DNA from: Nitrospira defluvii
GTDB taxonomy: Bacteria > Nitrospirota > Nitrospiria > Nitrospirales > Nitrospiraceae
Direction of reading: 5' to 3'
DNA: 64,000 nucleotides
NCBI GenBank assembly: GCA_011525625.1
Contig: WYAX01000012.1
Coordinates: 434,001 to 498,000 of the forward strand
Of the stretch, positions 17,850-38,065 are shown piece after piece. The notes under the pieces were generated by a model. The model was not told the origin of the DNA. It saw only the letters and a list, made by a program, of their open reading frames with translations, and did no database searches. A program made the position numbers and the translations under genes. Each line of letters begins with the position of its first letter. The stretch's first letter is position 1.

Positions 17850-20081
17850 ATGGAACCGTCTCGACTATCGATCCCGCCGTCTTTTTCTGACTCACGGCAT
17901 CACGCTATGCAACTTCTGAAAAATTTGTTTAACCGTTTGTCCGACAGCCTTCTGGTGTCGGTTCCGAGCCGCATCAGGGCTGCGCGCGATTTTGCCTCCG
18001 CTCCGGTGTTGCGACTGGTCTCGAATAAACCCGACGCGGCAGCCGGCGACAGTACCGCCAAGCGGGCTCCGTCTCATTCGACCGGCCACCCGGAAGCTTT
18101 GGAAGAGGCACTGCGGAAGAGTCAGGCCTGGTTTCTCGCGAAACAGCATGCCGCCGAAGGGTATTGGGTTGCCGAACTCGAAGCCGATACCACGCTCACA
18201 TCCGAATATCTGATGTTGCGCCGGTTCATGGATTGTGTGGATCCTGAACGGGAGCGCAAAGCCGTTCGATATTTGAAATCCGCGCAGCTGCCGTGCGGCG
18301 GGTGGCCTATTTATCACGGGGGGCCTGCTGAAATCAGCGCCTCGGTCAAGGCCTATTTCGCCTTGAAGCTCTCCGGTGTCTCGGCGGACGAACCCTTCAT
18401 GCAGTTGGCCAGAACCTGCATCCTCGACAAGGGAGGCGTGCCGGCGGCCAACGTGTTCACGAAAATCGCCCTTGCCTTGTTCGGCCAGTACGATTGGCGC
18501 GGTGTGCCCAGCATGCCGCCGGAAATCATGCTGTTACCGAAACGGTTTTACTTCAGCATCTACGCGATTTCCTATTGGTCGCGCGCAGTGCTCATTCCGC
18601 TCCTGATTATTTTCGCAAAACGGCCGCAGTGCTCTGTGCCGCCGGAACAGGGCATCGACGAGTTGTATACGCAGCCCCCCGCGGAGATCGACTACAGCAC
18701 GGTGCCGCCGTTCAAGAAGGATCGAACCTGGTTTACCGCAAGAAACTTCTTCATCAATCTCGACGCGTTGCTGAAGATCTACGATCGGTCCCCGGTCGAG
18801 TGGGTCCGTCAGAAGTCGCTCAAGTTCGCCGCTGACTGGATGTTGGATCACATGAAGGGGAGCGGCGGTCTCGGTGCGATCTATCCCGCCATGGCCAATT
18901 CCGTCATGGCCCTGCATTGCCTCGGGTATAAACATGATGACCCGCTGGTGGTGAAGGCGATGCGGGAGATCGAAGAGCTCGAAGTCCACGACACTGTGAT
19001 GGAGAACGGACAAGTGGTGGATGCCATGCATCTGCAGCCCTGTCATTCCCCGATCTGGGATACGGCGTTGCTCATCAATGCGTTGGTCGAAGCCGGGATG
19101 CCGCAGGACCATCCGGCGCTGCAGAAGGCCTCGAACTGGCTGCTGTCGAAGCAAACGACAACCGTGGGCGACTGGATCATCTCCTCTCCCGGTGCGGAAC
19201 CCGGCGGATGGTATTTCCAATTCGAGAACGAGCTGTTTCCGGATGTCGACGACTCCGCAGTCGTCTTGATGGCGCTCGCCAAGGTGCGCCTGTCCGATGA
19301 AGAGCAACAGCGGTCGGCGATTCGCCGCGGATGCCGCTGGGTCACCGCCATGCAGGGATCCGACGGCGGCTGGGGCGCCTACGACGTCGACAATAACCGG
19401 ATCGTCTTCAACTACATCCCCTTCGCCGACCACCGTGCGCTGCTGGATCCCAGCACCGCCGACTTAGCCGGTCGCTGCCTGGAAATGCTCGCGACCTTGG
19501 GATACGACTGGACTCACCCTTCGGTGGCGTCGGCCTTGACGTTCGTGAAAAACGATCAGGAGCAGGACGGAAGCTGGTACGGTCGTTGGGGCGTCAACTA
19601 CATTTACGGCACCTGGTCGGTCTTGTCCGGTTTGCGCGCGATCGGCGAAGATCTCTCCTCGCCGTATATTCGCCGGGCGGTCAACTGGGTTGAGTCGAAG
19701 CAGAACCCTGACGGCGGCTGGGGCGAGTCGTGCCTCTCCTATGCGGATGTCGCAGAAAGCGGGTGTGGCGAGAGTACGCCGTCACAAACCGCCTGGGCGC
19801 TGTTGGCCCTGATGGCAGGCGGAGTCACAGACTCGTTCAGCCTGGCCAGAGGGATTCACTACCTCATTCGGAATCAGCGGAAGGACGGCTCATGGGAGGA
19901 GGTACGCCATACCGGGACCGGGTTCCCGCGCGTGTTCTATCTTCGGTACCATTGGTATTGCCAATACTTCCCCCTCTGGGCGCTGGCCATGTACCGCAAC
20001 CTCAAGACTCGTGGCATGACGAGGGCCGATGAGTTGCGTCAGCTGGCCTATCAATCGGGACAGTTCCGGTCGCCTCGCTGA
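17850..20081 (+). CDS. shc: Squalene-hopene cyclase
   Basis: This terpenoid cyclase folds squalene into hopene, the first committed step of hopanoid synthesis, at the membrane surface. The 743-residue product has the catalytic aspartate motif PDVDD near residue 465 and many QW repeats, for example QGSDGGWGAYDVDNN near 500-515 and KQNPDGGWGESC near 615-626. Length fits the family (about 630-740), with a somewhat long N-terminal extension; an in-frame ATG at 17907 would remove 19 residues. A strong promoter precedes it and a HpnG-like gene follows, which supports a hopanoid cluster. Confidence 0.95.
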   Translation: MEPSRLSIPPSFSDSRHHAMQLLKNLFNRLSDSLLVSVPSRIRAARDFASAPVLRLVSNKPDAAAGDSTAKRAPSHSTGHPEALEEALRKSQAWFLAKQHAAEGYWVAELEADTTLTSEYLMLRRFMDCVDPERERKAVRYLKSAQLPCGGWPIYHGGPAEISASVKAYFALKLSGVSADEPFMQLARTCILDKGGVPAANVFTKIALALFGQYDWRGVPSMPPEIMLLPKRFYFSIYAISYWSRAVLIPLLIIFAKRPQCSVPPEQGIDELYTQPPAEIDYSTVPPFKKDRTWFTARNFFINLDALLKIYDRSPVEWVRQKSLKFAADWMLDHMKGSGGLGAIYPAMANSVMALHCLGYKHDDPLVVKAMREIEELEVHDTVMENGQVVDAMHLQPCHSPIWDTALLINALVEAGMPQDHPALQKASNWLLSKQTTTVGDWIISSPGAEPGGWYFQFENELFPDVDDSAVVLMALAKVRLSDEEQQRSAIRRGCRWVTAMQGSDGGWGAYDVDNNRIVFNYIPFADHRALLDPSTADLAGRCLEMLATLGYDWTHPSVASALTFVKNDQEQDGSWYGRWGVNYIYGTWSVLSGLRAIGEDLSSPYIRRAVNWVESKQNPDGGWGESCLSYADVAESGCGESTPSQTAWALLALMAGGVTDSFSLARGIHYLIRNQRKDGSWEEVRHTGTGFPRVFYLRYHWYCQYFPLWALAMYRNLKTRGMTRADELRQLAYQSGQFRSPR

Positions 20082-20135: not shown

Positions 20136-20891
20136 GTGACCGCAATCGGAGTCTTCGTGGCGACCCGATGGGAGCTGAGCGCGGTATGCCAGGCCTTCGC
20201 GACGACCGATCTGCACGTCGTCGGGGGAATCCGCTGCCATGTCGCGAGTCAGGCGCAAACTGAATGGTGGCTGATACCGATGGGGGTGGGGCCGCAACGA
20301 GCCGCGGCCACGGCCGCCAACGTGCTCGCGGCGAAGCGGTTGGACGCGCTCTGGTCGACGGGGTTTGCCTGTGCCTTGGGAACGGCCGGCATCGGTGATG
20401 TCTTGATCGGAACGGGGGTGACGAGGGTGGACGGCGTCACGCAAGGTCAGCCGCTTGCTTGCGCGCCTTCGACGGTCGAGTGGCTGCGCCAGGCCGCCGG
20501 GGCCAAGGGCCTGGAGACGCATTATGGCGGCTTTGTGACGGTGCCACGGGTGCTCTGCCGGGCGGAAGAAAAGCGGGAGATGGCCGACCTGGTGGGAGGG
20601 ATCGGACTCGACATGGAGAGTGCGGCGCTCGGGCTGGTGGCGATGGAACAAGGGATTCCCTTTGCGATCGTCCGCACCGTCTCGGACCTGCTCGATGAAA
20701 GCCTTCCGCTTGACTTCAATCTGTTTCTCAGGCCATCTGGATGGGCGAAGGGCGTCGCCGCGTGTCTGGCACATCCGTCGAGTCTGGTCGGACTCAATCG
20801 TCTTCGGGTACAGAGTCGGATCGCGGGGCAGCAACTGACCGCCCTGTATCGGGCCTGCGCCGAGCGGGCAGCGCGCGAAAAGGTCGCCTGA
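20136..20891 (+). CDS. hpnG: Hopanoid-associated nucleoside phosphorylase-like protein (HpnG)
   Basis: The 251-residue protein resembles the purine/uridine phosphorylase (MTA/SAH nucleosidase) superfamily, with a GVGPQRAAATAANVL segment near residues 50-64 and the nucleoside-binding DMESAALG motif near 158-165. HpnG releases adenine from adenosylhopane to give ribosylhopane-type intermediates. Position directly after squalene-hopene cyclase, 54 bases apart on the same strand, supports this assignment over a housekeeping nucleosidase. The start is a GTG at 20136. The adenosylhopane synthase HpnH is not in this window. Confidence 0.8.
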   Translation: MTAIGVFVATRWELSAVCQAFATTDLHVVGGIRCHVASQAQTEWWLIPMGVGPQRAAATAANVLAAKRLDALWSTGFACALGTAGIGDVLIGTGVTRVDGVTQGQPLACAPSTVEWLRQAAGAKGLETHYGGFVTVPRVLCRAEEKREMADLVGGIGLDMESAALGLVAMEQGIPFAIVRTVSDLLDESLPLDFNLFLRPSGWAKGVAACLAHPSSLVGLNRLRVQSRIAGQQLTALYRACAERAAREKVA

Positions 20892-20944: not shown

Positions 20945-21712
20945 GTGGAAGGCATTGCGCGTATCGGACGATTCACCATCGATCTGACGGAACAGATGGG
21001 CCGGATGATGCTGTTCGTGCTGTCCTCCTTTGCCTGGTTGACCAGACCGCCGTTCCGGTTCTTCCAAATCGTCAAGCAACTAAATTTTATCGGCTACAAA
21101 TCCACGTTCGTGGTCGTGCTGACCGCCGTGTTTACCGGCATGGTGCTCGCCCTCCAAGGGCACTACACGTTACGAAAATTCGGTTCGGAGGCGGTGCTCG
21201 GGTCGGCCGTGGCGCTCAGCATCATCCGGGAGTTGGGCCCCGTGCTTGCGGCGCTGATGGTGACCGCTCGGGCCGGGTCGGCCATGACGGCTGAAATCGG
21301 CATCATGCGCATCACCGAACAGATCGATGCGTTGGACACGATGGCGGTGAACCCGCTGCAATATCTGATCGCGCCCAAACTTGTGGCCAGTGTGATTGCC
21401 GTGCCGCTGCTGGTCGCGTTGTTCGATGTGGTCGGTATCTACGGCGGATATGTCGTCGGGGTGCAACTGCTGAACGGCAATGAGGGCGCCTATTGGAGTT
21501 CGATCGAATCGGCGGTGGAGTGGAAAGATGTCTACGGCGGCATCCTCAAATCCGTCAGTTTCGGTCTCTTGATCAGCTGGGTCTGTTGTTATAAGGGATT
21601 TCATACCAAGCACAGCGCCGAAGGACTGGGCACCGCAACCACGGAAGCCGTGGTATTGTCGGCCGTGCTGATTCTGGTGTGGGACTATTTCCTGACGTCG
21701 GTTCTGCTCTAA
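20945..21712 (+). CDS. mlaE: MlaE-family ABC transporter permease (lipid transport)
   Basis: MlaE/YrbE permeases form the membrane core of MCE-type lipid transporters between the inner and outer membranes. The 255-residue product has the typical multi-helix pattern and the family signatures FTGMVLALQG near residues 63-72 and RELGPVLAALMVTARAGSAMTAEIG near 95-119 (written here in parts of one conserved block). I start at the GTG at 20945, preceded by GAGGAGGG; the open frame to 20741 overlaps hpnG and lacks family similarity. ATPase, MCE and MlaC-like genes follow in order. Confidence 0.92.
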   Translation: MEGIARIGRFTIDLTEQMGRMMLFVLSSFAWLTRPPFRFFQIVKQLNFIGYKSTFVVVLTAVFTGMVLALQGHYTLRKFGSEAVLGSAVALSIIRELGPVLAALMVTARAGSAMTAEIGIMRITEQIDALDTMAVNPLQYLIAPKLVASVIAVPLLVALFDVVGIYGGYVVGVQLLNGNEGAYWSSIESAVEWKDVYGGILKSVSFGLLISWVCCYKGFHTKHSAEGLGTATTEAVVLSAVLILVWDYFLTSVLL

Positions 21713-21716
21713 TGCC

Positions 21717-21744
21717 GTGAAACGTGAAGGGTGAAACGTGAAAC
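21717..21744 (+). repeat. Four tandem heptamers (GTGAAAC/GTGAAGG)
   Basis: Four adjacent seven-base units, GTGAAAC, GTGAAGG, GTGAAAC and GTGAAAC, lie in the 89-base gap between mlaE and mlaF. No promoter elements accompany them. They could be slipped-strand repeats or a small binding-site array. Confidence 0.6.
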
Positions 21745-21801
21745 GCATGAAGGGAATGCGGCTGCGACCACAGGGGGCAGAGGAGGCCGACACGAGGCCT
21801 C

Positions 21802-22566
21802 ATGATTAAACTGGTCGGAGTCGAAAAAACATTGGGGAAGCAGCCGGTGCTGCGCGGCGTGAACTTGACCATTCCGACGGGCAAGCTGACGACGATTATC
21901 GGACGGAGCGGCGAAGGCAAGAGTGTGTTGTTGAAGCACATCATCGGCCTGATGCAGCCCGATCGCGGCGAAGTCTGGATCGACGGGACGGACATTGCCC
22001 GCTTAAAAGGGCAGGCGCTCAACGAGGTCCGGAAAAAGTTCGCGATGTTGTTTCAAGGCGCGGCGCTCTTCGATTCGTTGACCGTCTTCGAAAACGTCGC
22101 CTTCCCGTTGCGTGAAAAGCTCAGGTTGAAAGGCGATACGGTCACGAGACGAGTGGAAGAGAAGCTCGAGCAAGTCGGCCTTAAGGGCATGGGGCACAAA
22201 TTCCCCGCAGAGTTGAGCGGAGGCATGCGCAAACGTGCCGGCTTGGCTCGTGCGTTGGTGATGGAGCCGGAAATCATGCTGTTCGACGAGCCGACGACGG
22301 GGCTCGACCCGTTGATGGCCAAGGCCATCCACGATCTCATCGTGGCCATGCAACAACAGTTCAAGTTCACGGCTGTGATGGTCAGCCACGAAATCCCCGA
22401 GATCTTCGGTATTTCCGATTATGTGGCGATGTTGAAGAACGGACGTATTGCCGAAATGGCCCCCTCGAGCGAATTTGTGAAGACGACGGACGAGGAGATT
22501 CGCGAGTTTATTTTTGTCGGCGGCACCGTCACGGCGAAGGAATTGCCGACGGCATCCCGTTCTTGA
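21802..22566 (+). CDS. mlaF: MlaF-family ABC transporter ATPase
   Basis: This 254-residue ATPase powers the MlaE permease. Walker A is GRSGEGKSV near residues 34-42, the signature is LSGGMRKRAGLARAL near 136-150, and Walker B is IMLFDEPTTGLDP near 157-169, followed by the switch His in VSHE. The GGMRKRAG signature is typical of the MlaF/Ttg2A group. It overlaps the open frame of the MCE gene by 4 bases, although the preferred MCE start lies further downstream. Confidence 0.94.
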   Translation: MIKLVGVEKTLGKQPVLRGVNLTIPTGKLTTIIGRSGEGKSVLLKHIIGLMQPDRGEVWIDGTDIARLKGQALNEVRKKFAMLFQGAALFDSLTVFENVAFPLREKLRLKGDTVTRRVEEKLEQVGLKGMGHKFPAELSGGMRKRAGLARALVMEPEIMLFDEPTTGLDPLMAKAIHDLIVAMQQQFKFTAVMVSHEIPEIFGISDYVAMLKNGRIAEMAPSSEFVKTTDEEIREFIFVGGTVTAKELPTASRS

Positions 22567-22637
22567 GCCGGTTGTCGAGTGCGCCCGTCATGCCGCGATC
22601 GGTCTGCCACGCGGGCGAGGGGCTGGGAGGAGAGGAC

Positions 22638-23081
22638 ATGGAACGCGCAAAGCTCGAAGTGATGGTCGGTATCTTCGTGCTCGTCGGGATCGCCTGCCTG
22701 GGGTACCTGTCCATCAAGCTGGGGAAGCTGGAGGTGATCGGCGGGCACAATTATCCGGTCGAGGCGGAATTTACCTCCGCGTCGGGACTTAAGCCCGGCG
22801 CCTCGGTGGAAATCGCCGGGGTGGAAGTCGGGCGCGTGCGACAGATCGGCCTGAACAGCGACCGCGCGGTGGTGGCGTTAGCCATTCAAGAGGGCGTGAA
22901 ACTGTACTCCGATACGATCGCCTCGATTAAGACGCGCGGGATCATCGGCGACAAGTACCTCTCGCTCTCGGTCGGCGGCGGCGGCGATGTGCTGAAGCCA
23001 GGCGAGAAGATTCGTGACACCGAGTCGGGGCTTGATCTCGAAGAATTGGTTAGCCAGTATGTGCACGGGAAGGTCAACTAG
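22638..23081 (+). CDS. mlaD: MlaD-family MCE domain lipid-binding protein
   Basis: The 147-residue protein has one N-terminal membrane helix (about residues 8-27) and a single MCE domain with the expected FTSASGLKPGASVEIAGV and KTRGIIGDKYLSL blocks. MlaD hexamers sit on the permease and bind phospholipids or other lipids in the periplasm. The ATG at 22638 is chosen because GGGAGGAGAGG precedes it; the open frame extends to 22563, overlapping mlaF. The length is near that of minimal MlaD proteins. Confidence 0.9.
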   Translation: MERAKLEVMVGIFVLVGIACLGYLSIKLGKLEVIGGHNYPVEAEFTSASGLKPGASVEIAGVEVGRVRQIGLNSDRAVVALAIQEGVKLYSDTIASIKTRGIIGDKYLSLSVGGGGDVLKPGEKIRDTESGLDLEELVSQYVHGKVN

Positions 23082-23168
23082 CCTGGTCGGCTGAGGGTGG
23101 AGCGCTCGGTGGGGCGCGTACCAGGCCGGCGGGGTAACGGGGTCGCCACTCACAGGAGAGGTGTTGGG

Positions 23169-23783
23169 ATGCACGGAACGCGATGGATGATCATGGCGGG
23201 TGTGTTGGCGCTGTCTTTGTGCCTGGGCGGGTTGTCCCCCGCTATGGCCGGACCTGCGACGGAGTCGGTCCGGGGCACGATCGACGAGGTGTTGAAGATC
23301 CTGAACGATAAGGAATTGAAAGCTCCGGCCAAGCAGGAAGATCGTCGGCAGCGGCTGGAGAAGGTCGTGGCGGCGCGATTCGATTACTCCGAAATGTCGC
23401 GGCGCTCGTTGGGCGCGCAGTGGAATCAGTTGTCGGACAAGGACAAGCAAGAGTTCGTGGATCTGTTCCGCACACTGTTGACGAATACCTACGCCGATCG
23501 GGTTGAAACCTATTCCGGCGAAGGGGTGAAATATCTCAACGAGCGGACGGAGAAGGAATATGCGGAGGTCCGCACGAAGGTCTTGTCCGGCAAGACCGAA
23601 ATTCCCATGGACTACCGGTTGATGAACAAGAGCGATGATTGGCATGTGTACGATGTTGTGGTCGATGGTGTCAGTCTGGTGAATAACTATCGCGGGCAGT
23701 TTTCGAAGATCCTGCACACGTCCTCGTACTCCGACCTCGTCGACCAGCTCCGCAAGAAATCTGAAAAAATCAAAGCTCCGTAG
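23169..23783 (+). CDS. mlaC: MlaC/HpnM-like periplasmic lipid carrier (Ttg2D family)
   Basis: The 204-residue product has a cleavable-looking signal peptide (hydrophobic residues 5-25 ending near PAMAGPA). A MlaC/Ttg2D domain follows, with RFDYSEMSRRSLGAQWNQLS near residues 68-87 and a C-terminal NYRGQFSKIL segment. MlaC ferries lipids between MCE complexes and the outer membrane. The hopanoid-associated HpnM belongs to the same superfamily; because squalene-hopene cyclase lies upstream, hopanoid cargo is plausible but not shown. The start at 23169 has AGGAGAGG upstream. Confidence 0.85.
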   Translation: MHGTRWMIMAGVLALSLCLGGLSPAMAGPATESVRGTIDEVLKILNDKELKAPAKQEDRRQRLEKVVAARFDYSEMSRRSLGAQWNQLSDKDKQEFVDLFRTLLTNTYADRVETYSGEGVKYLNERTEKEYAEVRTKVLSGKTEIPMDYRLMNKSDDWHVYDVVVDGVSLVNNYRGQFSKILHTSSYSDLVDQLRKKSEKIKAP

Positions 23784-23816
23784 TTCCCGTAGGGGACGAT
23801 TGTTCCGGCGAGCGCC

Positions 23817-25022
23817 ATGCAGCGACATTATTGTTCGTCGATCCTTCTTGTGCTGGCGCTGGCCGGACTCCTCCCTCTCATCCTGCCGGCTCCCCTTCGC
23901 GCCGATACGCAAATTTTTCCGGTTCCGTCGGTGTCAACCAGCAAGAACGACGGGAACGACGCCGGTTTGATTGCGCCGATTTTGATTTCCGATCCCGACG
24001 GCGAATTGAAGTACCTCATGGCGCCGATGCTGATTCAGAATTCGATCGTCGGCAGCCGGGCGGTGTTTAACCTGTTTAAGTACGATCCGGGCGGCCGCCA
24101 GATGAAGCTGATCGCCTCGCTGACCGAGAAGATCGAGCGCAAAGTGCTGTTCGACTATGTCGATCCGGCCTTCGGGAACGGACAATACTTCTTGAATTTC
24201 GGCGGCACGTTCTTCAAAAACGCGACCTCCCGGTTCTTCGGCTTAGGCCAGTCGACCGTACAGGCGGACGAATCGAATTACACGGCCAGGGAAGCGCGTG
24301 CCTACTGGCGACTGGGCCTCTATGCGAACGAGGTGACGCAGGTGTCGGTCGGACAGCGGGTCCGGCAGGTGCAACTCCAGCGAGGCGCTACGGACCTCCC
24401 CTTCTCTGTCGAGCAATTTCCCACGGTGGACGGCATTCAAGGCGAATCCATTATCGTCGGGCATCGGGCATCATTTTATTACGACACCCGCGACAGCCTG
24501 ATAACACCCACGGACGGCATGTCCGTCATGGCCTATGCGGAGTTGAATCAAAATGTGAAAAACGGCGACCATCCCGTCTATTCACGATATGAACTGGAGA
24601 TCAAGAAACTGTTTCCCAGTGAATCCAAACGCGCCATTCTTGTGGTGCGGGCCGATCTGCAGGCCACGATCGGTTCCCAAGTCCCCTTCTTCGAGCAGTC
24701 GTCGCTGGGGGGGCAGAACAATCTGCGGGGATTCGGGATGGATCGGTATATCGATAAACATCTGATCTCGTTGAGTATCGAAGAGCGGATTCACGTCTTG
24801 CGAACAAAGGTTGCGGGGGTGACGGCGGATTTTGAGCTGGCGCCGTTTTTGGACACGGGACAAGTGTTCAACTCTTTTAAAGATGTGAGCTTTCAAGATT
24901 ACCGGATGACGCCGGGTGTCGGCTTTCGAGCGATCGTGCGCCCCAACGTCGTCGGTCGTCTGGATTATGGCTACAGCCGCGAAGGCGGGGCGATTTTTGC
25001 GGGGTTGGATTTCCCCTATTAG
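23817..25022 (+). CDS. POTRA-less Omp85-type outer-membrane barrel protein
   Basis: The 401-residue protein has a signal peptide (to about residue 30) and a C-terminal barrel domain of the surface-antigen/BamA-TamA type. The key clue is SSLGGQNNLRGFGMDRYID, near residues 298-316, with the family's RGF-like motif; the C-terminus ends in FPY, a barrel-like aromatic end. No POTRA domains fit in the available length, unlike BamA. It follows mlaC by 33 bases and may be co-transcribed. A role in receiving lipids at the outer membrane is speculative. Confidence 0.75.
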   Translation: MQRHYCSSILLVLALAGLLPLILPAPLRADTQIFPVPSVSTSKNDGNDAGLIAPILISDPDGELKYLMAPMLIQNSIVGSRAVFNLFKYDPGGRQMKLIASLTEKIERKVLFDYVDPAFGNGQYFLNFGGTFFKNATSRFFGLGQSTVQADESNYTAREARAYWRLGLYANEVTQVSVGQRVRQVQLQRGATDLPFSVEQFPTVDGIQGESIIVGHRASFYYDTRDSLITPTDGMSVMAYAELNQNVKNGDHPVYSRYELEIKKLFPSESKRAILVVRADLQATIGSQVPFFEQSSLGGQNNLRGFGMDRYIDKHLISLSIEERIHVLRTKVAGVTADFELAPFLDTGQVFNSFKDVSFQDYRMTPGVGFRAIVRPNVVGRLDYGYSREGGAIFAGLDFPY

Positions 25023-25059
25023 ACGTCTCGTCGCAGTGAGTGAACGGCCGGGGTTACTC

Positions 25060-26058
25060 ATGCGGAAGATCAGCTGTCTGTTCGGGATGCTCATATCGTG
25101 CGTCGGTCTGCCGTGGACGGTCGGGGCGGAGGGGTTCGGTCCGTTTCCGGTCAGAAACTTTCAGGCGTTGGACCAGCTGGTACTGGCGATGCCGGGTGAG
25201 CGCGCGGCCGTGTTGAAGAAAGGAGATTTCGATATCCGGCTCGAAGTCGCGAATACCGCCTCGATTGCTCGCGATCAGGAAGAGCAGGCGGATGTCACGA
25301 TGAAGTTTGAAACCGTCCGCGCCGGGTTGTTCCTGCGATATGGTTTGACCGACCGGCTGGAGATCGGCGTGGAAGTTCCAGGCTATCACCGCTATCGTGG
25401 ATTTATGGAGGAGCCGATCCTCGGGGTGGAGCGGGGAACGACCGGGATCTCACCGGCCCGCAAAGCGCTGAGAGAAACGGCCTATGCCTTCAACATCACC
25501 AACGGCGGTCGAACTCTGTTTCAGGGAGCCAAGGGCGCGACGGGGTTGGGCGATATTTCATTCTACGGAAAATATCAGCTGCTGAAAGAGACCTCGACGC
25601 TACCGGCCCTCTCGTTTCGCGTGGGGATCAAGGCTCCGACCGGCGAGACGGACCAGGTCTTCGGCAGCGGGCATCCGGATGCCGGGATCGGCCTCGCGTT
25701 GGATAAGACCCTTGCGACCAATTGGATTCTGTACGCCAACCTCAACGGGGTGTTTCCGACAGGGCGGATCGCGGGCCTCGATCTCCAGCCGGTCATGAGT
25801 GGATTGGTGGCCGTGGAGTATCTCTGGACGGACAATTTTTCCATCACCGCACAGTTCGATTATTATTCGCCGCCCTTTCACGGCACGGGAACCAGGGTCT
25901 TGGACAAGGGCGTGACCGAGTCGGTCATCGGCGTCAGTTACCGGATCCTGCCCAGTCTGCTCTGGCAGGTGTACGGGGTCGAGAATTTGGACTTCATTAC
26001 CGGGAGCGCGGCCGACTTTACGATCGCCACCCTGTTCACCTATCGGATGCGTTCGTAG
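25060..26058 (+). CDS. DUF3187-like outer-membrane barrel protein
   Basis: The 332-residue product has a signal peptide (about residues 1-23) and then FGPFPVRNFQALDQLVLAM, which matches my recollection of the DUF3187 family beginning. The rest alternates polar and hydrophobic residues as in a beta barrel, with aromatic girdle-like segments and many glycine turns such as GIKAPTGETDQVFGSGHPDAG near residues 188-208 (given as two halves of one loop). It ends with TYRMRS. No enzymatic motif is visible. Position after the Omp85-like gene suggests a shared role in the outer membrane. Confidence 0.65.
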   Translation: MRKISCLFGMLISCVGLPWTVGAEGFGPFPVRNFQALDQLVLAMPGERAAVLKKGDFDIRLEVANTASIARDQEEQADVTMKFETVRAGLFLRYGLTDRLEIGVEVPGYHRYRGFMEEPILGVERGTTGISPARKALRETAYAFNITNGGRTLFQGAKGATGLGDISFYGKYQLLKETSTLPALSFRVGIKAPTGETDQVFGSGHPDAGIGLALDKTLATNWILYANLNGVFPTGRIAGLDLQPVMSGLVAVEYLWTDNFSITAQFDYYSPPFHGTGTRVLDKGVTESVIGVSYRILPSLLWQVYGVENLDFITGSAADFTIATLFTYRMRS

Positions 26059-26240: not shown

Positions 26241-28184
26241 ATGTCTCTTTTAAAAAATATCCACAGTCCCGCCGATTTGAAGCGCCTGTCCCCTGGACAG
26301 TTTCCGGAACTCTGCCAGGAGATTCGTGAGCAAATCCTCGCGGTGGTTTCGAATGTCGGGGGGCATCTGGCCTCCAATCTCGGTGTCGTGGAGTTGACGG
26401 TCGCCTTGCAATATCTCCTGGATACGCCGAACGATAAAATCGTCTGGGATACCAGTAATCAAGCCTATACCCACAAGCTCCTGACCGGACGCCGGGAACA
26501 GTTCCACACGTTGCGGCAATACGGTGGATTGAGCGGATTCTGCAAGCGTGAAGAAAGTGCGTACGATACCTTTAATGCCGGGCATGCCGGTACCGGTGTC
26601 TCGGCTGCCTTCGGAATGGTCGAGGCGCGAGAGCAACGGGGCGAGAAGCACAAGGTCGTCTGCGTCGTCGGCGACGGAGCGATGACCGCGGGGATGACTC
26701 TGGAGGGTTTGCACCACGCGGGTGGGACGAACAAGGACTTCCTTGTCGTGCTGAACGACAATCAAATGTCGATTTCTCGCAACGTCGGAGCCATTTCCGC
26801 CTACCTGAACCGGACCTTCACCGGGGAATTCTACGCGCGGATGCGAGAGGAAACCGGACAACTGCTGCGCAAAATTCCCCACATCGGGCTGGAAGTACAA
26901 AAGATCGCCCGTCGGGCCGAAGAATTGGCCAAAGGCGCAATTCTCCCCGGTCTACTCTTCGAAGAGTTAGGCTTCCAGTATGCCGGACCGATCGATGGGC
27001 ACAACTTCGAGCATTTGCTCCCGACACTGGAAAACGCCTTGAAAATGAAGGGCCCGGTCTTGCTGCATGTGATCACGAAAAAGGGGTTGGGGTATCAGGC
27101 GGCCATGGACAACCCCGTCTGGTTCCATGCCTGTCCGCCGTTCGTGCGTGAAACGGGCGTGCCGGCCAAGAAAGCCGTGCGCCCCAGCTACACCAGCATG
27201 GCTGTCGATGCCCTGATCAAAGTGGCGCATCAAGACAAGCGAGTGGTCGCCATCACCGCGGCTATGTGTGAGGGCACCGGTCTGAATGCCTTTGAGAAGG
27301 AGTTTCCTGAGCGGATTTATGACGTGGGTATCGCTGAACAGCATGCGGTGACCTTCGCGGCCGGTATGGCAGCACAGGGCATGAAGCCGGTGGTGGCGTT
27401 GTATTCCACCTTCTTGCAACGAGCCTACGACCAGGTCGTGCACGATGTGGCCACCCAGAACTTGCCGGTGACCTTCTGCATCGACCGTGGCGGTCTTGTG
27501 GCTGAAGACGGCACGACCCACCACGGCGCCTTCGATTTCGCGTTCCTGCGGCATGTGCCGAACATGGTCGTTGCCGCTCCCAAAGACGAGAACGAATTGC
27601 AGCATATGATCAAGACCTGTGTGAGTTACGATGGCCCCGCTTCTGTGCGCTACGCACGGGGGGTGAGCCTCGGGGTGCCGATGGATCCTGAGCCCGCCAT
27701 CCTGCCGATCGGCAAGGGCGAGCTGCTGCGGGAGGGGACGGATGTGGTGATCGTGGCCATCGGCGTCACCGTCTGGCCTGCCATGAAGGCCGCCGAACGG
27801 CTGGCCCAGGAAGGCATTTCCGCCGCCGTCGTCAACGCCCGGTTTGCGAAGCCGCTGGATACCGAACTCATCCTCAAGACGGCGAAGAACGTCCGATGTC
27901 TGGTGACGGTGGAAGAAGGCTGCAAGATGGGCGGATTCGGGTCCGCCGTGTTGGAAGCCCTGTCCGAAGCCGGACTCATGTTGCGCACCAAGGTGCTCGG
28001 GTTACCCGATTGGTATATCGAGCAGGGGCCGCAGGATCTGTTGCGTGAACGGTATGGCCTGACCGCCGACGGGATCTATAACAGCGTCAAGGCCTTGTTT
28101 GGAGCCGGTGTGGTGGCGGACGATGCCGCTCGCCTCGCCGCGCTCGTGGGTAGTTTACCGCACGGCGATGAGCAGGGCAGCTAA
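26241..28184 (+). CDS. dxs: 1-deoxy-D-xylulose-5-phosphate synthase
   Basis: DXS joins pyruvate and glyceraldehyde 3-phosphate in a thiamine diphosphate-dependent step to start the MEP pathway. The 647-residue product has the ThDP/Mg motif VVGDGAMTAGM near residues 143-153 with the paired Asn at LNDNQMSISRN, the catalytic Glu region GIAEQHAVTFAAGMA near residues 363-377, and the transketolase segment DRGGLVAEDGTTHHGAFD. Domain order and length match the family. It is followed by ispG 51 bases downstream, so the two MEP genes may form an operon. Confidence 0.96.
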   Translation: MSLLKNIHSPADLKRLSPGQFPELCQEIREQILAVVSNVGGHLASNLGVVELTVALQYLLDTPNDKIVWDTSNQAYTHKLLTGRREQFHTLRQYGGLSGFCKREESAYDTFNAGHAGTGVSAAFGMVEAREQRGEKHKVVCVVGDGAMTAGMTLEGLHHAGGTNKDFLVVLNDNQMSISRNVGAISAYLNRTFTGEFYARMREETGQLLRKIPHIGLEVQKIARRAEELAKGAILPGLLFEELGFQYAGPIDGHNFEHLLPTLENALKMKGPVLLHVITKKGLGYQAAMDNPVWFHACPPFVRETGVPAKKAVRPSYTSMAVDALIKVAHQDKRVVAITAAMCEGTGLNAFEKEFPERIYDVGIAEQHAVTFAAGMAAQGMKPVVALYSTFLQRAYDQVVHDVATQNLPVTFCIDRGGLVAEDGTTHHGAFDFAFLRHVPNMVVAAPKDENELQHMIKTCVSYDGPASVRYARGVSLGVPMDPEPAILPIGKGELLREGTDVVIVAIGVTVWPAMKAAERLAQEGISAAVVNARFAKPLDTELILKTAKNVRCLVTVEEGCKMGGFGSAVLEALSEAGLMLRTKVLGLPDWYIEQGPQDLLRERYGLTADGIYNSVKALFGAGVVADDAARLAALVGSLPHGDEQGS

Positions 28185-28235: not shown

Positions 28236-29435
28236 ATGCATATCACCAGGAAAAAGACGCGGCAGATTCAAGCAGGATCGGTCAAGATCGGTGGCGATGC
28301 GCCGATTTCGGTCCAGTCGATGTGTTCCACCGATACGCGCGACGTGAAGGCGACCGTGGAGCAGATCCGGCAGTTGGAAACCGCCGGGTGCGAGCTCATT
28401 CGCGTCGCGGTTCCAGACGAAGAGGCGGCAAACGCGCTGCCGAAGATCAAAGCCGCGATGACCGTGCCGCTGATTGCCGATATTCACTTCGACCATCGCC
28501 TGGCTCTCAAGGCGGCCGAAGTCGTCGATTGCGTCCGTATCAACCCCGGCAACATCGGGGCCTGGTGGAAGGTGCAGGAGGTGATCAAGGCGGTGAACGA
28601 GCGGGGCATTCCCCTGCGCGTGGGCGTCAATGGCGGCTCGCTCGAACGCCCGCTGTTGGATAAGTATGGCTGGCCATCGCCGGAAGCCCTGTCCGAATCG
28701 GCCTTGAACGCCGTGCATGCGCTCGAAGACGAAGGCTTCACCAACATGAAGGTGTCGCTCAAAGCTTCCGACGTGCACCACGCCATCGACGCCTACTACC
28801 TTTTTTCCACCCAATGCAATTACCCGTTGCACATCGGTATTACGGAGGCCGGCACCGCCATGACTGGCGCGGTCAAATCCGCGATCGGCCTCGGTTGGCT
28901 GCTCTCGCAAGGCATCGGCGACACATTACGCGTCTCGCTCGCTGCTGATCCGGTGGAAGAGGTCAAAGTCGGCTTTGAAATCCTCAAGTCCTTGGAGTTG
29001 CGTCATCGCGGCATCAACGTCATCGCCTGCCCGACCTGCGGGCGGGTCGAAATCGACGTGGTGCGCATGGCCAACGAGTTGGAAAAGAAGCTGGGCCATA
29101 TCAAAACTCCCCTGAATGTCTCGGTGCTGGGGTGCGTCGTGAACGGCATCGGCGAAGGCAAGGAAGCCGACATCGGCATTGCCGGCGGCGAAGGCAAAGG
29201 CATCCTCTTCAAGAAGGGGAAGCTGATGCGTAAGGTGCCTATGGAAGAACTCATGGACACGCTCATTCACGAAGTCGAGCAGTTGGCCAAGGAAAAGGAA
29301 GCTGAAGCGTCCGGCGTCGCGGTGAACGGGTCGTCGGATGAGCAAGCAGAGGCGGGTTGGGAAGTGATAGGGCACGCGCCGGACGAGCAGTCCACCATTG
29401 TCCGCGACATTCCTGTGCTTCCAAGCAAGCCTTAG
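28236..29435 (+). CDS. ispG: 4-hydroxy-3-methylbut-2-enyl diphosphate synthase (IspG/GcpE)
   Basis: IspG converts MEcPP to HMBPP in the MEP pathway using a [4Fe-4S] cluster. The 399-residue product has a TIM-barrel N-terminal half beginning with QAGSVKIGGDAPISVQSM, and cluster cysteines at residues 265 and 268 (CPTC) and 300 (VLGCVVNGIGE), with the Glu of that motif as fourth ligand. It is the compact two-domain bacterial form. The last 40 or so residues are an acidic, low-complexity tail beyond the catalytic domain. The gene product feeds IspH, encoded earlier in the window. Confidence 0.95.
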   Translation: MHITRKKTRQIQAGSVKIGGDAPISVQSMCSTDTRDVKATVEQIRQLETAGCELIRVAVPDEEAANALPKIKAAMTVPLIADIHFDHRLALKAAEVVDCVRINPGNIGAWWKVQEVIKAVNERGIPLRVGVNGGSLERPLLDKYGWPSPEALSESALNAVHALEDEGFTNMKVSLKASDVHHAIDAYYLFSTQCNYPLHIGITEAGTAMTGAVKSAIGLGWLLSQGIGDTLRVSLAADPVEEVKVGFEILKSLELRHRGINVIACPTCGRVEIDVVRMANELEKKLGHIKTPLNVSVLGCVVNGIGEGKEADIGIAGGEGKGILFKKGKLMRKVPMEELMDTLIHEVEQLAKEKEAEASGVAVNGSSDEQAEAGWEVIGHAPDEQSTIVRDIPVLPSKP

Positions 29436-29537: not shown

Positions 29538-29613
29538 GGCGCCGTACCCAAGTGGCTAAGGGAGCAGTCTGCAAAACTGCGATGCGGCGGTTCGAACCCG
29601 CCCGGCGCCTCCA
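29538..29613 (+). tRNA. tRNA-Cys (anticodon GCA), with encoded CCA
   Basis: The cloverleaf can be drawn by eye. The acceptor stem GGCGCCG (29538-29544) pairs with CGGCGCC (29603-29609), followed by T and an encoded CCA. The anticodon stem GCAGT/ACTGC holds the loop CTGCAAA, with anticodon GCA at 29571-29573. The T stem GGCGG/CCGCC holds TTCGAAC. The 3' half is the attachment site of the adjacent island and is repeated at 38229-38276. The integrase reading frame ends inside this tRNA on the opposite strand. Confidence 0.96.
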
Positions 29614-30758
29614 ACCATTCCTGTAAATATCTCAGAGGGTTCGGTGATTCTGGCCGGACCCTGTTCAACCTGCTGATTATCGCTACTCCCGGTTTTACTC
29701 CCGGTTCCACTCGCACTTTTCGCGGCAATTGCCCCCAAACTCGCTCGATTCACTGCTGTGCGTAGGTGAGCCGGGGAGAGATGCGCATAGCGCATGGTCA
29801 TCGTGATCGTGGAATGGCCCATCAATTCTTGGACGGTCCGGATATCGACTCCTGCCATCACAGCCCGAGAGGCAAAGGTATGCCGTAAGGTGTGCCAGGT
29901 GACTCCTTCGATTTTTGCCCGTTTCAAGGCAGGTTCGTAGATCTTCACCACAAAGTTGCGCCCCTGCATCGGTTGTGCGGAGGTGAGAGGACTCGGAAAA
30001 AGAAAGGGGCTGTGCATCCAAGAAGTGAGACCCTTGACGATTTCTAGCGCAGCATCCGTGAGAATAACGTGGCGAGTCTTGCCGGATTTACTCAGTGGGA
30101 TGGTCAGGATGCCCTGTTCGGAGTTCAGGCAGTCCCAGCGCGAATGAAACTGTTCGGTGAGGCGTAACCCTGTTTCGAGAGCGAAGGCCACGATCAACCA
30201 GTGCTCCGGAGGCAAGGTATCCCGGAGGCTGGAGATTTCCTTATCACTCAGGAAGCGAAGCCGCCCGGCAGGCTCGGAAAAGAACTTCACGCCTTTGATG
30301 GGATTGGCCGAAAGCAGACCATCGGCAATCGCCAAGTTCAGGATGCGTCGTAAGGCTCCAAAGTAGCGATTAATCGTTCGGGCGGTGCGGGTGCCCTTGT
30401 GTTTCATTTTGGCTTGGATATGCCGTAAGTCGTCGGCGGTAATCTCGGTCAAAAGCTTCCGCCCTAGGAGCTTCGACCAGAACTTTCCATAGCGATGCAC
30501 ATTCCGAAGACCTGGTGAGGTCACGCCTTCCAGATACCGCGCAATCCAAGCCCGGAGGGTCAACTCTTTGGAGACGGCATACTTCTCGGGGAAGTAACGG
30601 TTCTCGCGAGCTTCGGACCGCAACCGACCGTACAGCGTCTTGGCTTGGCTCTTGGAGTCCGCCCGGAACCATTTCTCCCGGCCATTCACATACAGGCGAA
30701 CCCACCAACCGCCTTGCTTAAACACTATTCCACGGTCCTTACCGTTTGGTCTTGCCAT
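29556..30758 (-). CDS. int: Tyrosine recombinase (phage-type integrase)
   Basis: The 400-residue protein integrates and excises the island. It has an N-terminal arm-binding-like domain, a SAM-like core-binding region (residues about 70-160) and a C-terminal catalytic domain with the expected residues: Arg in ETGLRLTE, His and Arg in HTLRHTFAS, His in MGHSTI, and the nucleophilic Tyr in MRYAHL. Downstream of the catalytic domain the frame runs through the att core and stops within the tRNA on the antisense strand, so about the last 20 residues are encoded by tRNA DNA. Its start overlaps the upstream zinc-finger gene by 20 bases. Confidence 0.95.
   Translation of the reverse strand: MARPNGKDRGIVFKQGGWWVRLYVNGREKWFRADSKSQAKTLYGRLRSEARENRYFPEKYAVSKELTLRAWIARYLEGVTSPGLRNVHRYGKFWSKLLGRKLLTEITADDLRHIQAKMKHKGTRTARTINRYFGALRRILNLAIADGLLSANPIKGVKFFSEPAGRLRFLSDKEISSLRDTLPPEHWLIVAFALETGLRLTEQFHSRWDCLNSEQGILTIPLSKSGKTRHVILTDAALEIVKGLTSWMHSPFLFPSPLTSAQPMQGRNFVVKIYEPALKRAKIEGVTWHTLRHTFASRAVMAGVDIRTVQELMGHSTITMTMRYAHLSPAHLRTAVNRASLGAIAAKSASGTGSKTGSSDNQQVEQGPARITEPSEIFTGMVGGAGRVRTAASQFCRLLP
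29569..29616 (+). repeat. attL: 48-bp direct repeat in tRNA-Cys
   Basis: This stretch, starting at the anticodon loop and ending three bases past CCA, is identical to 38229-38276. Sequence diverges immediately on both sides, so the repeat ends are clear. The intact tRNA is kept at this end because the island supplies an identical 3' half. Confidence 0.95.
29687..29722 (+). repeat. Left-end 12-bp direct repeats (candidate integrase arm sites)
   Basis: Two adjacent 12-base units, TCCCGGTTTTAC and TCCCGGTTCCAC, are followed by a degenerate third, about 70 bases inside attL. The same units recur four times near attR (38066-38113), in the same orientation. Tandem short repeats near both ends of an integrating element are typical of integrase arm-binding sites. 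Here they also lie inside the integrase coding region, and their 12-base period keeps the frame. Confidence 0.6.
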
Positions 30759-33735: not shown

Positions 33736-35214
33736 ATGTCGCGGTCACTTTACGGCAAACTCGCCCTTGTGTTGCTCTTCCTGTTTTGTGCGGTTGGGGT
33801 TCTATACACCCTCCTAATGGTCTTCACGACGCGCATGTATCAGCAAGAAGTGAATCAGAAGCTGAACCGTGCTCTGGCCAGAAACATTGTTACTGACCAG
33901 TTACTAAGCAGCCAAGGAGAGGTGAGTCCGTACGCTCTGAAAGAACTGTTTCACCTACTTATGGTTATCAATCCGAGCATTGAGATGTACTTGCTTGATG
34001 AGAATGGGGGCATAGTCAACTTCTCCGCTCCCACTGAGAAGGTCAAGCGCTCGGCTGTCTCGTTAGAACCAATACATCGTTTTCTCACCGAGGCGGACGC
34101 ATTTCCTATTCTTGGTGACGATCCCCGTGATGCGACTCGACAGAAGGTCTTTTCTGTTTCAGCCATACCCTTACACGGACAACCAACAGGATATCTGTAC
34201 ATTGTCCTTGGCGGAGAGGAGTATGACTCCGTCGCCGATATGCTGAATCGGAGCTACATCTTCCGGCTGAGTCTCTGGGCAGCACTTACCGGCTTACTGT
34301 TCGCTCTTTTGGGCGGTCTCTTTCTATTCAACATGCTCACCAGAAGGTTAACCAAACTAGCATCGACGATGGAAACGTTCGCAAAGAGCGATTTTTCAGA
34401 GGCGCTCGAGCTGCATCCTCAGGATTTCATTCCTGAGCGGAATAGTGATGAAATTGATCGGCTCCGGTCCACATTCAATCGGATGGTAGAACGAATTCTT
34501 CAGCAAGTGGCCACTTTGAAGCAGACGGACATCCTTCGGCGTGAGTTGGTGGCCAATGTGTCCCATGATTTGCGTACCCCCCTGGCATCCTTGCATGGGT
34601 ATCTGGAAACGTTACTGATGAAAGAAGGAACGCTTACACGAGAGGAATACCGGACGTTTCTCGACGTTGCCCTCAAGCAAAGCCAACGGCTTAGGGAGCT
34701 TGTGGGGGAACTCTTTGAATTGGCTCGCTTAGATTCGCGTGAAGCTCGCATTCAATGCGAACAATTTTCTTTAGCCGAGCTTGTCCAGGATGTGTGTCAA
34801 AAGTTTCAACTCACCGTCGCAAATAGGGGGATAGCCCTAAAGAGCAGTTTTACAGATGATCTGCCATTTGTGGAGGCTGATATCGGCCTCATCGAGCGGG
34901 CGCTAGAAAACATAATCAATAATGCTACTCGCTATACACCGAGCGGAGGGACCATTGCGATTTCGTTAAGCCACGAATCCGGCTCGGTTATGATACGAAT
35001 TTCTGATACTGGCTGTGGGATCGCTGATCACGACTTGCCTTATATTTTTGATCGTTTTTATAGGGCGAATCGACAAAATCAGCCTGGAGGAGCTGGGCTC
35101 GGGCTGGCCATTACTAAGCGAATCCTAGAGCTACATGGAAGTACAATTCGAGCAGAGAGTATACCTAACATCGGAACCATCATCAGCTTTGAACTGCCCA
35201 CCGTGCACTTCTAG
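33736..35214 (+). CDS. Sensor histidine kinase of the island
   Basis: The 492-residue kinase has an N-terminal helix (about residues 8-30), a periplasmic region of about 130 residues, a second helix (about 175-200), HAMP, a HisKA domain with His in VSHDLRTPLASLHG, and a HATPase with DTGCGI and GGAGLGLAI boxes. It forms a two-gene operon with the response regulator. The periplasmic sensor region has no family I recognise. Location of chlorite dismutase directly downstream suggests it senses chlorite, chlorate, or a related oxidative signal; that is inference. Confidence 0.92.
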   Translation: MSRSLYGKLALVLLFLFCAVGVLYTLLMVFTTRMYQQEVNQKLNRALARNIVTDQLLSSQGEVSPYALKELFHLLMVINPSIEMYLLDENGGIVNFSAPTEKVKRSAVSLEPIHRFLTEADAFPILGDDPRDATRQKVFSVSAIPLHGQPTGYLYIVLGGEEYDSVADMLNRSYIFRLSLWAALTGLLFALLGGLFLFNMLTRRLTKLASTMETFAKSDFSEALELHPQDFIPERNSDEIDRLRSTFNRMVERILQQVATLKQTDILRRELVANVSHDLRTPLASLHGYLETLLMKEGTLTREEYRTFLDVALKQSQRLRELVGELFELARLDSREARIQCEQFSLAELVQDVCQKFQLTVANRGIALKSSFTDDLPFVEADIGLIERALENIINNATRYTPSGGTIAISLSHESGSVMIRISDTGCGIADHDLPYIFDRFYRANRQNQPGGAGLGLAITKRILELHGSTIRAESIPNIGTIISFELPTVHF

Positions 35215-35257
35215 TCTCTATTGTTCTCGACCGTTACGGGCCGCTCGCCACATCAGG

Positions 35258-35312
35258 CGTGATAAAAATGTGACAATTTCGTGAGATCGATGTGAAGGGG
35301 CAGGGCTATGCT
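35258..35312 (+). promoter_or_regulatory. cld promoter with four 11-bp-spaced GTGA boxes
   Basis: Four boxes occur at exact 11-bp steps: CGTGA at 35258, TGTGA at 35269, CGTGA at 35280 and TGTGA at 35291. TATGCT follows at 35307-35312 as a likely -10, and no TTGACA-like -35 is present. The arrangement is typical of a promoter activated by a PhoB-class dimer array standing in for the -35 box. The transcript would begin near 35319, about 47 bases before the cld ATG. Confidence 0.72.
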
Positions 35313-35365
35313 TGACCATGCATTGGGTTGTACCAGCCCTTTTAACCGAAAAGGAGAACGGACTT

Positions 35366-36160
35366 ATGAAGAGAATCAGTCAGATTTCGATGGTTGCGCT
35401 TCTATTATGCTTCCTTCCCATGTTGTCTGTAGTGAGTGAGGCGGCCATGGATCACGACAAGCTCTTAAAGGATCCTGGTGTCTACGCAACGTTTGCTGTG
35501 TTCAAGATGGGGGAGCACTGGTGGCAGATGGATCATGAAGCGCGTGTCAAGGCGGCCTCCGAAATGAAAAAGGTGTTCGAAAAGCACGCCGATAAGTTAA
35601 TAGTCGATACGCATTTGCTTCGTGGTCTGTCTGAGAGAGCTGATGTACTTGTCAGGATTCACTCGAAAGAGATGGTTCATAATCAGAACTTCTTGTTAGA
35701 CCTCATGGGGACCACTATGGGGATGGATATGAAAAATACTGACACCTTCAATGGCATCACCAAAACCCTAAATTATGTCCCTAGCTTCCCAGAAGAACTG
35801 AAGGGGGAGTTGAAGACACCGCCACCTCAGGGCAGCCCATACGTTATAGTGGTTCCTATACGCAAGGACGCAGAATGGTGGATTTCTGGACAAGACACCC
35901 GAACAGGCCTGATGAAGGAACACACGGATGCGACGGTCGCATACTTGAAGACGGTGAAACGGAAGCTCTATCACTCCAGCGGGTTGGATGATTGGGATTT
36001 TATTACCTACTTTGAAACATCCAAGCTGGATGATTTCAACAATCTTGTGACTGGATTGCTCAAGGTCAAGGAGAACCGTCATAATAGGCGTTTCGGTGAT
36101 CCTCTCCTGTTGGGGACCATTCGACCATTGGATGAAATCCTCGATATTCTCAGTCGCTAG
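35366..36160 (+). CDS. cld: Chlorite dismutase, periplasmic (Cld)
   Basis: This haem enzyme splits chlorite into chloride and O2. The 264-residue precursor has a signal peptide (residues about 1-26) and a mature protein that strongly resembles, from memory, the pentameric Cld of Candidatus Nitrospira defluvii. The proximal haem His is His186 (in EHTDATVAYL) and the catalytic distal Arg is Arg199 (in KTVKRKLYHSSGLDD). FITYFET and HNRRFG blocks also match. The ATG at 35366 follows AAAAGGAG. It lies inside the island, directly after a two-component system whose likely binding boxes precede it. In nitrite oxidisers Cld probably removes chlorite formed by nitrite oxidoreductase acting on chlorate. 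Confidence 0.97.
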   Translation: MKRISQISMVALLLCFLPMLSVVSEAAMDHDKLLKDPGVYATFAVFKMGEHWWQMDHEARVKAASEMKKVFEKHADKLIVDTHLLRGLSERADVLVRIHSKEMVHNQNFLLDLMGTTMGMDMKNTDTFNGITKTLNYVPSFPEELKGELKTPPPQGSPYVIVVPIRKDAEWWISGQDTRTGLMKEHTDATVAYLKTVKRKLYHSSGLDDWDFITYFETSKLDDFNNLVTGLLKVKENRHNRRFGDPLLLGTIRPLDEILDILSR

Positions 36161-36188
36161 TCTATTCGCTCGCGCGTTCCAGAACACG

Positions 36189-36214
36189 GTGACCACCTGG
36201 GAACAGGTGGTCAC
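36189..36214 (+). terminator. Perfect 11-bp hairpin after cld
   Basis: GTGACCACCTG (36189-36199) and CAGGTGGTCAC (36204-36214) pair perfectly around a GGAA loop, 28 bases past the cld stop. The following T tract is short (TTCTAT), so it may act as a terminator or as an mRNA 3' stabiliser. Confidence 0.55.
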
Positions 36215-36281
36215 TTCTATGCTGGTACTCACAAATCTTTACTTCTAATACTTAGTTATAGGCTCTATATGGCCCCACCCT

Positions 36282-36347
36282 GTCACCACCTGTTGGCTTC
36301 TCAGGGGGTGAGAGGGAGGAAATGCAGGGTTATTTTCAAGTGGTGAC
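36282..36347. repeat. Inverted repeat related to the cld hairpin
   Basis: GTCACCACCTG (36282-36292) and CAAGTGGTGAC (36337-36347) form an inverted repeat with one mismatch and 44 bases between. The arms differ by one or two bases from those of the hairpin at 36189-36214, so the same 11-base family appears four times within 160 bases. Confidence 0.5.
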
Positions 36348-36466
36348 GGCGATGCGCTAGCTTGGCCGTCCCCTTGGTGAATTAGTGGCCATGCAGAGTT
36401 GAGATGAAGACTTTGTCTGCCCAGGATTATCAACTAGACGCGAAATATGCTGACCACAAAGGCCCG

Positions 36467-36524
36467 CCGGCCGCTCCGGACTGCCGGGGCCGGACGGCCG
36501 GGGGGCTCGGGGGCGCAGCCCCCG
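36467..36524. repeat. GC-rich double hairpin
   Basis: Two inverted repeats sit side by side. CCGGCCGCTCCGG (36467-36479) pairs with CCGGACGGCCGG (36490-36501), with one bulge. CGGGGGC (36508-36514) pairs perfectly with GCCCCCG (36518-36524) around a GCA loop. The block is far richer in GC than its A/T-rich surroundings. Confidence 0.6.
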
Positions 36525-36755
36525 CTTCACTTGATCTATATGGTCAAAGTAGGACGACCCTTCCTTTGGGTTCTCAGGCGGAAGCCTAACTTTTGGGCGG
36601 GAGGATTCAGTTGCAAGGAAGCGCTCGCCGATTGCCTAAAGATTTTGCGCGAGCCTCTGAGGAACCTCGAAATGTCGATCTAATGAGGTTATATTTCGAA
36701 AATCTTTAATGCAGAGGGGTGCCGGAAAGGCAAAGGCTGAACGAAAAAAGGATCC

Positions 36756-37985: not shown

Positions 37986-38065
37986 TTAGTATGTTGGTTT
38001 AGACGGGCAGTGTTATTGGGAACTGATTCGCTTCCCACCAATCTACGGCAACGTACAAACCCTGA

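Follow-up and report, generated by a model that had tools for sequence, protein, structure and literature searches.

Hopanoids are the sterol-like lipids of bacteria, and squalene-hopene cyclase (SHC, the product of shc) catalyses the first committed step in their synthesis. The HpnN route of Rhodopseudomonas palustris delivers hopanoids to the outer membrane (Doughty 2011, as cited in PMC10942540 and PMC12583986); the accessible text of the second source describes HpnN in these terms and adds that HpnM is possibly involved in hopanoid transport (PMC12583986). Here we describe a 64,000-nucleotide stretch of Nitrospira defluvii DNA (the window; assembly GCA_011525625.1, contig WYAX01000012.1, positions 434,001 to 498,000 of the forward strand) in which hopanoid genes and genes of an Mla-type lipid transport system (mlaE, mlaF, mlaD and mlaC) are followed by a gene for an Omp85-type outer-membrane barrel without POTRA domains. 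The gene content of this block, the linkage of the barrel to hopanoid genes, its near exclusion with HpnN and its Omp85 fold are shown in what follows. An Omp85 protein without POTRA domains that is linked to hopanoid genes and alternates with HpnN in Nitrospirota is the description that suits the barrel best.

The HpnN route resembles the present system in that it serves hopanoid producers, and Nitrospirota HpnN is adjoined by an MlaC-like protein in 11 of the 12 loci read. However, HpnN is an RND inner-membrane transporter, whereas the source genome of the window (G000; 4.6 Mb, 35 contigs) is without HpnN and encodes instead MlaEFD, of the ABC type, together with the Omp85 barrel. As in the E. 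coli Mla system (MlaFEDB, MlaC and MlaA), the genes for MlaE, MlaF, MlaD and MlaC stand together in the window; in contrast to that system they lie in a hopanoid block ahead of an Omp85 barrel, MlaA is unlinked and we noticed no MlaB-like gene in the block. The minimal Mla system of Veillonella parvula also has no linked MlaA, and its MlaEFD genes lie near TolC, as in loci of one Nitrospirota family (f13), but there a long MlaD bridges the envelope and MlaC is missing, whereas the window encodes a short MlaD and an MlaC (PMC10665443). The BstABC transporters of Methylococcus move sterol-like lipids between membranes, and weakly BstC-like tetratricopeptide repeat (TPR) genes occur in families f2 and f13; however, the window block showed no such gene, and the accessible part of the source mentions no Omp85 barrel (PMC10942540).

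Two earlier reports come closest to the barrel itself. The 'noNterm' Omp85 proteins of Heinz and Lithgow (2014) are, like the window barrel, without N-terminal domains, but no hopanoid link is given in the part of that paper available to us, in contrast to the tie found in Nitrospirota (PMC4104836). The hopanoid cluster of Leptospirillum ferriphilum includes Omp85 and squalene-hopene cyclase among its listed domains; Omp85 is merely listed, and the text available neither assigns it a transport role nor compares it with HpnN (PMC12654047). Marine Nitrospirales have been reported with shc and hpnH (in the available text of PMC10579370). A search of the open literature, with subscription papers mostly outside it and several sources accessible in part, found no proposal linking an Omp85 barrel to hopanoid transport.

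The barrel and hopanoid genes in Nitrospirota

We scored 245 Nitrospirota genomes for SHC (E up to 1e-30), for the barrel (E below 1e-50, a threshold set after viewing the list, at a clear gap; the next match was at 3e-27) and for HpnN (over its cut-off), and found them in 114, 98 and 18 genomes, respectively. Barrel and SHC occurred together in 96 genomes, the barrel alone in two, SHC alone in 18 and neither in 129; that is, SHC was present in 96 of 98 barrel genomes versus 18 of 147 barrel-less genomes. There were 104 strong barrel matches outside the window, and 80 of their loci were fetched for tallies (24 were left out, with G120 and G063 read later; G, C, L and f numbers are our handles for genomes, contigs, loci and families). 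One or more of shc, hpnI, hpnJ and hpnK (NCBIfam names) stood in 74 of these 80 loci, often without mla genes. Thus an f6 locus (L108) reads shc-hpnG-barrel-DUF3187 with no mla gene, and the f19 arrangement is shc-(hpnG)-barrel, with SHC in 8/9 loci and the ninth cut by a contig end yet carrying hpnI and hpnJ. In f13 the barrel is beside hpnJ in four of five loci, three of which also have hpnI, and second barrel copies in the window's own family (f1) lie in loci with hpnI, hpnJ or hpnK (L109, L118, L119, L122). The barrel therefore follows hopanoid synthesis rather than mla and is the most constant hopanoid-linked element in the phylum. The initial annotation had tied the barrels to the mla genes; outside Nitrospirales most barrels lie apart from mla, with hopanoid genes, and it is in f1 and f2 that they stand beside mlaC.

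Within f1, a window-type barrel copy is present in 59 genomes, including the window's own, and each of the 52 further loci fetched has mlaC immediately before the barrel and contains both shc and hpnG. The gene after the barrel is DUF3187 in 22 of these loci and dxs in 30. A scan of a genome collection yielded 181 loci, the best 80 of which were named; except for L182 (labelled uncultured Nitrosospira) they are labelled Nitrospira or other Nitrospirota, so that relatives in other phyla were not reached. Among these 80, mlaC is upstream of the barrel in 78, the remaining two ending at contig edges, and DUF3187 adjoins the barrel in 44. The adjacency of mlaC and the Omp85 barrel in these loci is more than chance would give. 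The initial annotation had asked whether the barrel genes always follow mlaC in relatives; in these loci the Omp85 barrel does, and the DUF3187 barrel, which we rejected as a core component, is an optional accessory. A structure model of the DUF3187 barrel (pLDDT 84) has FapF and the COG4313 channel as its closest folds, with FadL lower.

Some of these loci hold further genes that deserve mention. Three f13 loci (L220, L221, L222) present a third mla/hopanoid arrangement, with mlaEFD and mlaC beside hpnH, shc and hpnG; in L220 a TolC-type outer-membrane efflux gene (OEP match) stands among the mla genes. TPR proteins that are weakly BstC-like (L102 8189-8989 and L112 10374-11108; 29 and 45 bits versus a cut-off of 350) have their genes adjacent to the barrel gene in f2 and within an hpnJ/hpnI cluster in f13. 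Six f2 genomes of g11 (e.g. G229 C55:40960-41934) have a second very long open reading frame (ORF), of 1143-1216 amino acids, with a match to the cyclase C-terminal domain at about 184-191 bits. In three f19 loci (L113 7040-9262, L114 1248-3410, L116 4551-6710) an HpnG-like domain and the barrel share one continuous ORF of 719-740 amino acids with a hydrophobic stretch between them, which may represent one fused protein or two overlapping starts.

The barrel protein passes the Pfam test for an Omp85 domain (PF01103, 67.5 bits, cut-off 24), and no POTRA model of Pfam matched it. Both an alignment and an AlphaFold2 model place little but a signal-peptide-like helix ahead of the first strands. 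It fits the description of 'noNterm' Omp85 proteins in having no N-terminal extension and falls outside the BamA, TamA and TpsB subfamilies, for which POTRA domains are a criterion. The AlphaFold2 model, built from the window protein and 42 relatives, has a pLDDT of 74 and a pTM of 0.71, and its best Protein Data Bank matches are BamA and TamA barrels, with Z up to 21.9 (Foldseek, VIA-align 2). An RGF/Y-type motif in loop L6 is a mark of the Omp85 superfamily, and the window barrel carries it as LRGFG; in 21 aligned homologues, drawn from six family codes (f1, f2, f6, f13, f19, f27), this loop region is kept, with LEGFG or LRAFG in some lineages. G000 encodes three Omp85 proteins: one of BamA size, the window barrel and a ShlB-like protein with POTRA_2. 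A search for plasmid-borne relatives returned no plasmid match.

Alternation with HpnN, and the place of MlaA

Among the 114 SHC genomes the barrel alone was present in 94, HpnN alone in 16, both in two and neither in two; under independence 15 genomes with both would be expected. Of the two genomes with neither, G029 carries a long stretch of HpnN that is cut off at the edge of a contig. When HpnN was searched for again, with a Nitrospirota sequence as query, the same 18 genomes were recovered plus the truncated copy of G029, and neither HpnN search found a match in G000. MlaA and MlaC served as controls and neither was exclusive with HpnN: of the 94 barrel-only genomes, 65 had MlaA and 69 had MlaC, and all 18 HpnN genomes had both.

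The loci themselves suggest two alternating arrangements, one of HpnN with MlaC and mostly MlaA, the other of the barrel, with MlaC in f1 and f2 and without it in f19 and f27. The HpnN loci read (12 of 18 genomes, with examples checked against Pfam) contained MlaC and MlaA in eight cases, MlaC only in three and neither in one, and in this last genome the pair lies beside shc. Judged by coordinates alone, 11 of the 18 genomes have MlaA no more than 3 kb from HpnN. As HpnN loci often have an mlaC-mlaA pair, the barrel can be said loosely to occupy the place of MlaA in the other arrangement. In f2, shc loci of HpnN genomes (L209-L213, 5/11 read) are ordered shc-hpnG-mlaC without a barrel, L210 also holding mlaEFD and a TPR gene, and in all four f2 genomes without HpnN (L102-L105) the barrel is directly after mlaC.

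The initial annotation had gone further and read the two barrels of the window as standing in place of MlaA, of which it saw no gene. This is true of the window only, since G000 has two unlinked mlaA genes on other contigs than the block, one on C12 and one on C3 (PF04333, about 228-230 bits for each), and at least one copy is found in 62 of 62 genomes of the family; MlaA does occur elsewhere in genomes that carry this system, which that annotation had itself regarded as telling against the idea. Replacement of a lost MlaA by the barrels is therefore rejected, and the phrase is also wrong for the second barrel on account of its presence in fewer than half of the family loci. G000 has three copies each of MlaE and MlaC. 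Elsewhere in this genome (L015 6295-8148, minus strand) one of the other MlaC genes has directly after it the gene of a further predicted barrel, with a weak match to Phenol_MetA_deg and not to Omp85.

The gene block in the window

All genes of the block lie on the plus strand (Table 1), with an smc-like gene upstream of shc. Pfam and NCBIfam confirmed the gene order from shc through the mla genes to the two barrels that had been read from the letters alone, and place MlaE, MlaF, MlaD and MlaC within one gene block, as in Mla systems. The names dxs, ispG and smc-like are our presumptive assignments. With the judged starts, the intergenic gaps are 33 bp between mlaC and the barrel, 37 bp between the barrel and DUF3187, and 33 to 182 bp across shc to dxs, short enough to be compatible with a single transcript. 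A scan for promoters and terminators was uninformative, shuffled sequence yielding at least as many sites, and its result was not used.

Table 1. Genes of the hopanoid/mla block, with positions in the window
Feature	Position	Strand	Basis
shc, squalene-hopene cyclase	17850..20081	+	NCBIfam TIGR01507 773.7 bits, over cut-off 431.1; Pfam PF13243, PF13249
hpnG-like phosphorylase	20136..20891	+	Best NCBIfam model TIGR03468 HpnG 96.9 bits, below cut-off 187.1; PF01048
mlaE, MCE-type ABC permease	20945..21712	+	PF02405 281 bits; start judged by eye, mechanical ORF from 20741
mlaF-like ATPase	21802..22566	+	PF00005; best NCBIfam model PRK11831 MlaF 219 bits, below cut-off 441
mlaD, short, single MCE domain	22638..23081	+	TIGR04430 143.9 bits, over cut-off; PF02470; start by eye, mechanical ORF from 22563
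mlaC, HpnM-like periplasmic lipid carrier	23169..23783	+	PF05494 175.6 bits; best NCBIfam model HpnM TIGR03481 107.7 bits, below cut-off 160.1; start uncertain, 23097 or 23169
Omp85-type outer-membrane barrel without POTRA domains	23817..25022	+	PF01103; signal-peptide-like start; LRGFG motif
DUF3187-like barrel	25060..26058	+	PF11383 78.9 bits, gathering cut-off 24; start by eye, mechanical ORF from 24916
dxs, isoprenoid precursor synthesis	26241..28184	+	ORF; conserved neighbour in relatives' loci; end of conserved block
ispG, isoprenoid precursor synthesis	28236..29435	+	ORF; conserved neighbour in relatives' loci; end of conserved block

Directly after ispG, an ORF that we take to encode a tyrosine recombinase (29556-30758, minus strand) ends inside tRNA-Cys (29538-29613, plus strand), and GC content dips to about 0.47-0.49 at 34001-38000, a few kb beyond the tRNA. 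To judge from these sequence features, this is likely an integrated island.

A candidate hopanoid route and its alternatives

Given that carriers of the barrel are nearly all hopanoid makers without HpnN, the barrel may belong to a second hopanoid route to the outer membrane. We lean, by a modest degree, towards the view that the block combines hopanoid synthesis with an HpnN-independent delivery of hopanoids to that membrane. MCE-type MlaEFD and MlaC families are lipid-handling proteins. In the route we envisage, the hopanoid lipid would be extracted or loaded by MlaEFD at the inner membrane and carried through the periplasm by the HpnM-like MlaC. From MlaC it would pass to the POTRA-less barrel for placement in the outer membrane, perhaps via the lateral seam of the barrel. 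MlaEFDC stands beside the barrel in Nitrospirales, with DUF3187 as an optional extra. The cargo suggested by the initial annotation has gained in strength and is likely to be hopanoid, in that the barrel family tracks hopanoid genes phylum-wide and is near-exclusive with HpnN; on the same grounds the Omp85 barrel is a likely outer-membrane partner, a role for which the optional DUF3187 barrel does not qualify. More tentatively, and here we would not put the case above a reasonable possibility, the barrel may be the outer-membrane hopanoid inserter of most hopanoid-making Nitrospirota, fed in Nitrospira by MlaEFD and HpnM-like MlaC and in other lineages by different partners.

A number of observations weigh against this route. 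Cargo, direction and contact between MlaC and the barrel are what we infer, and Mla is usually described as retrograde (PMC10665443, in the text available). The roles ascribed to the Omp85 proteins studied so far lie in the assembly or translocation of proteins (PMC11116518, available in part). Two of the 98 barrel genomes are without SHC (G046, 75% complete; G063, 83% complete), and the barrel locus of G063 (L236) has no hopanoid gene; nor have six of the 80 fetched loci (L100, L106, L120, L123, L124, L128). Three f1 genomes (G060, G143, G220; L214-L216) keep shc-hpnG-mlaEFDC with no barrel in the slot after mlaC and a paralogue elsewhere, and these paralogues are only 34-37% identical, in loci that as read have no hopanoid genes. 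For the barrel lineages f19 and f27 a match to MlaC is missing genome-wide, which rules MlaC out as a universal partner of the barrel. G155 and G200 carry both barrel and HpnN, and G227, though nearly complete, carries neither; a search of its contig edge did not turn up a fragment of HpnN.

The strongest of the alternatives, which we nevertheless consider unlikely, is that the near exclusion of HpnN and the barrel reflects shared ancestry, some clades having inherited HpnN and the others not, with no functional replacement; this would be compatible with the barrel serving hopanoids. The existence of genomes with both systems is consistent with it, and independent contrasts on the cyclase gene tree (computed without the long truncated-contig row L235) gave only two opposite results and three with no difference (sign test p 0.5, not significant), a further point against replacement even if a sign test with two opposite contrasts is unable to reach significance. 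On the other side, the cyclase tree of 40 rows, L235 included, requires, on starred branches, at least three changes for the HpnN-only label and at least five for barrel-only, so that neither label is one clade. In addition, the switch within f2 occurs at one fixed slot, and at the genus level 21 genera are barrel only, eight HpnN only, two mixed and two neither. Given the weak contrast count, gene-order linkage is the firmer part of our case and replacement of HpnN by the barrel the weaker.

A less probable scenario is that MlaEFDC is an ordinary Mla system that moves phospholipids with an unlinked MlaA, its genes merely being parked in an isoprenoid/hopanoid operon. Either MlaA of G000 could serve the window MlaEFDC, which also counts against the hopanoid route, and in E. 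coli mlaA is likewise unlinked from mlaB-F (PMC10665443, in the text available). However, f2 mlaC stays with shc-hpnG even where MlaE was not found in the genome (e.g. G081; L209), and f13 has mlaEFD, the TolC-type gene and mlaC beside shc/hpnH, so that the mla/hopanoid link is not local to one lineage; moreover, the best NCBIfam model of the window MlaC is HpnM, though below its cut-off.

Least probable, by a little, is that the barrel is an insertase or translocase assembling some outer-membrane protein that hopanoid makers need, lipids not being its substrate: its BamA/TamA fold and the role in membrane-protein biogenesis that Heinz and Lithgow suggest for 'noNterm' Omp85 (PMC4104836, available in part) would fit, but it has no POTRA domain and no constant client gene adjoins it, its constant neighbours being hopanoid genes, and TamB was not found in f1 and f2, which leaves no TamA role for TamB there. 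None of the 77 f1 and f2 genomes, G000 included, gave a TamB match at E 1e-10, although a very divergent AsmA-like protein is possible, and a TamA-like anchor for TamB was rejected on this basis. Across the phylum, TamB matched in 132 of 245 genomes, versus none in f1 and f2.

Returning to the hopanoid route, Nitrospira are major nitrite oxidisers, and those surveyed here have shc and mostly no HpnN; the defined alternative gene set makes the question of how their hopanoids reach the outer membrane a testable one. If the proposed route is correct, it would give a stand-alone Omp85 barrel a role in lipid transport and MlaC/HpnM a clear place in the transport of hopanoids.

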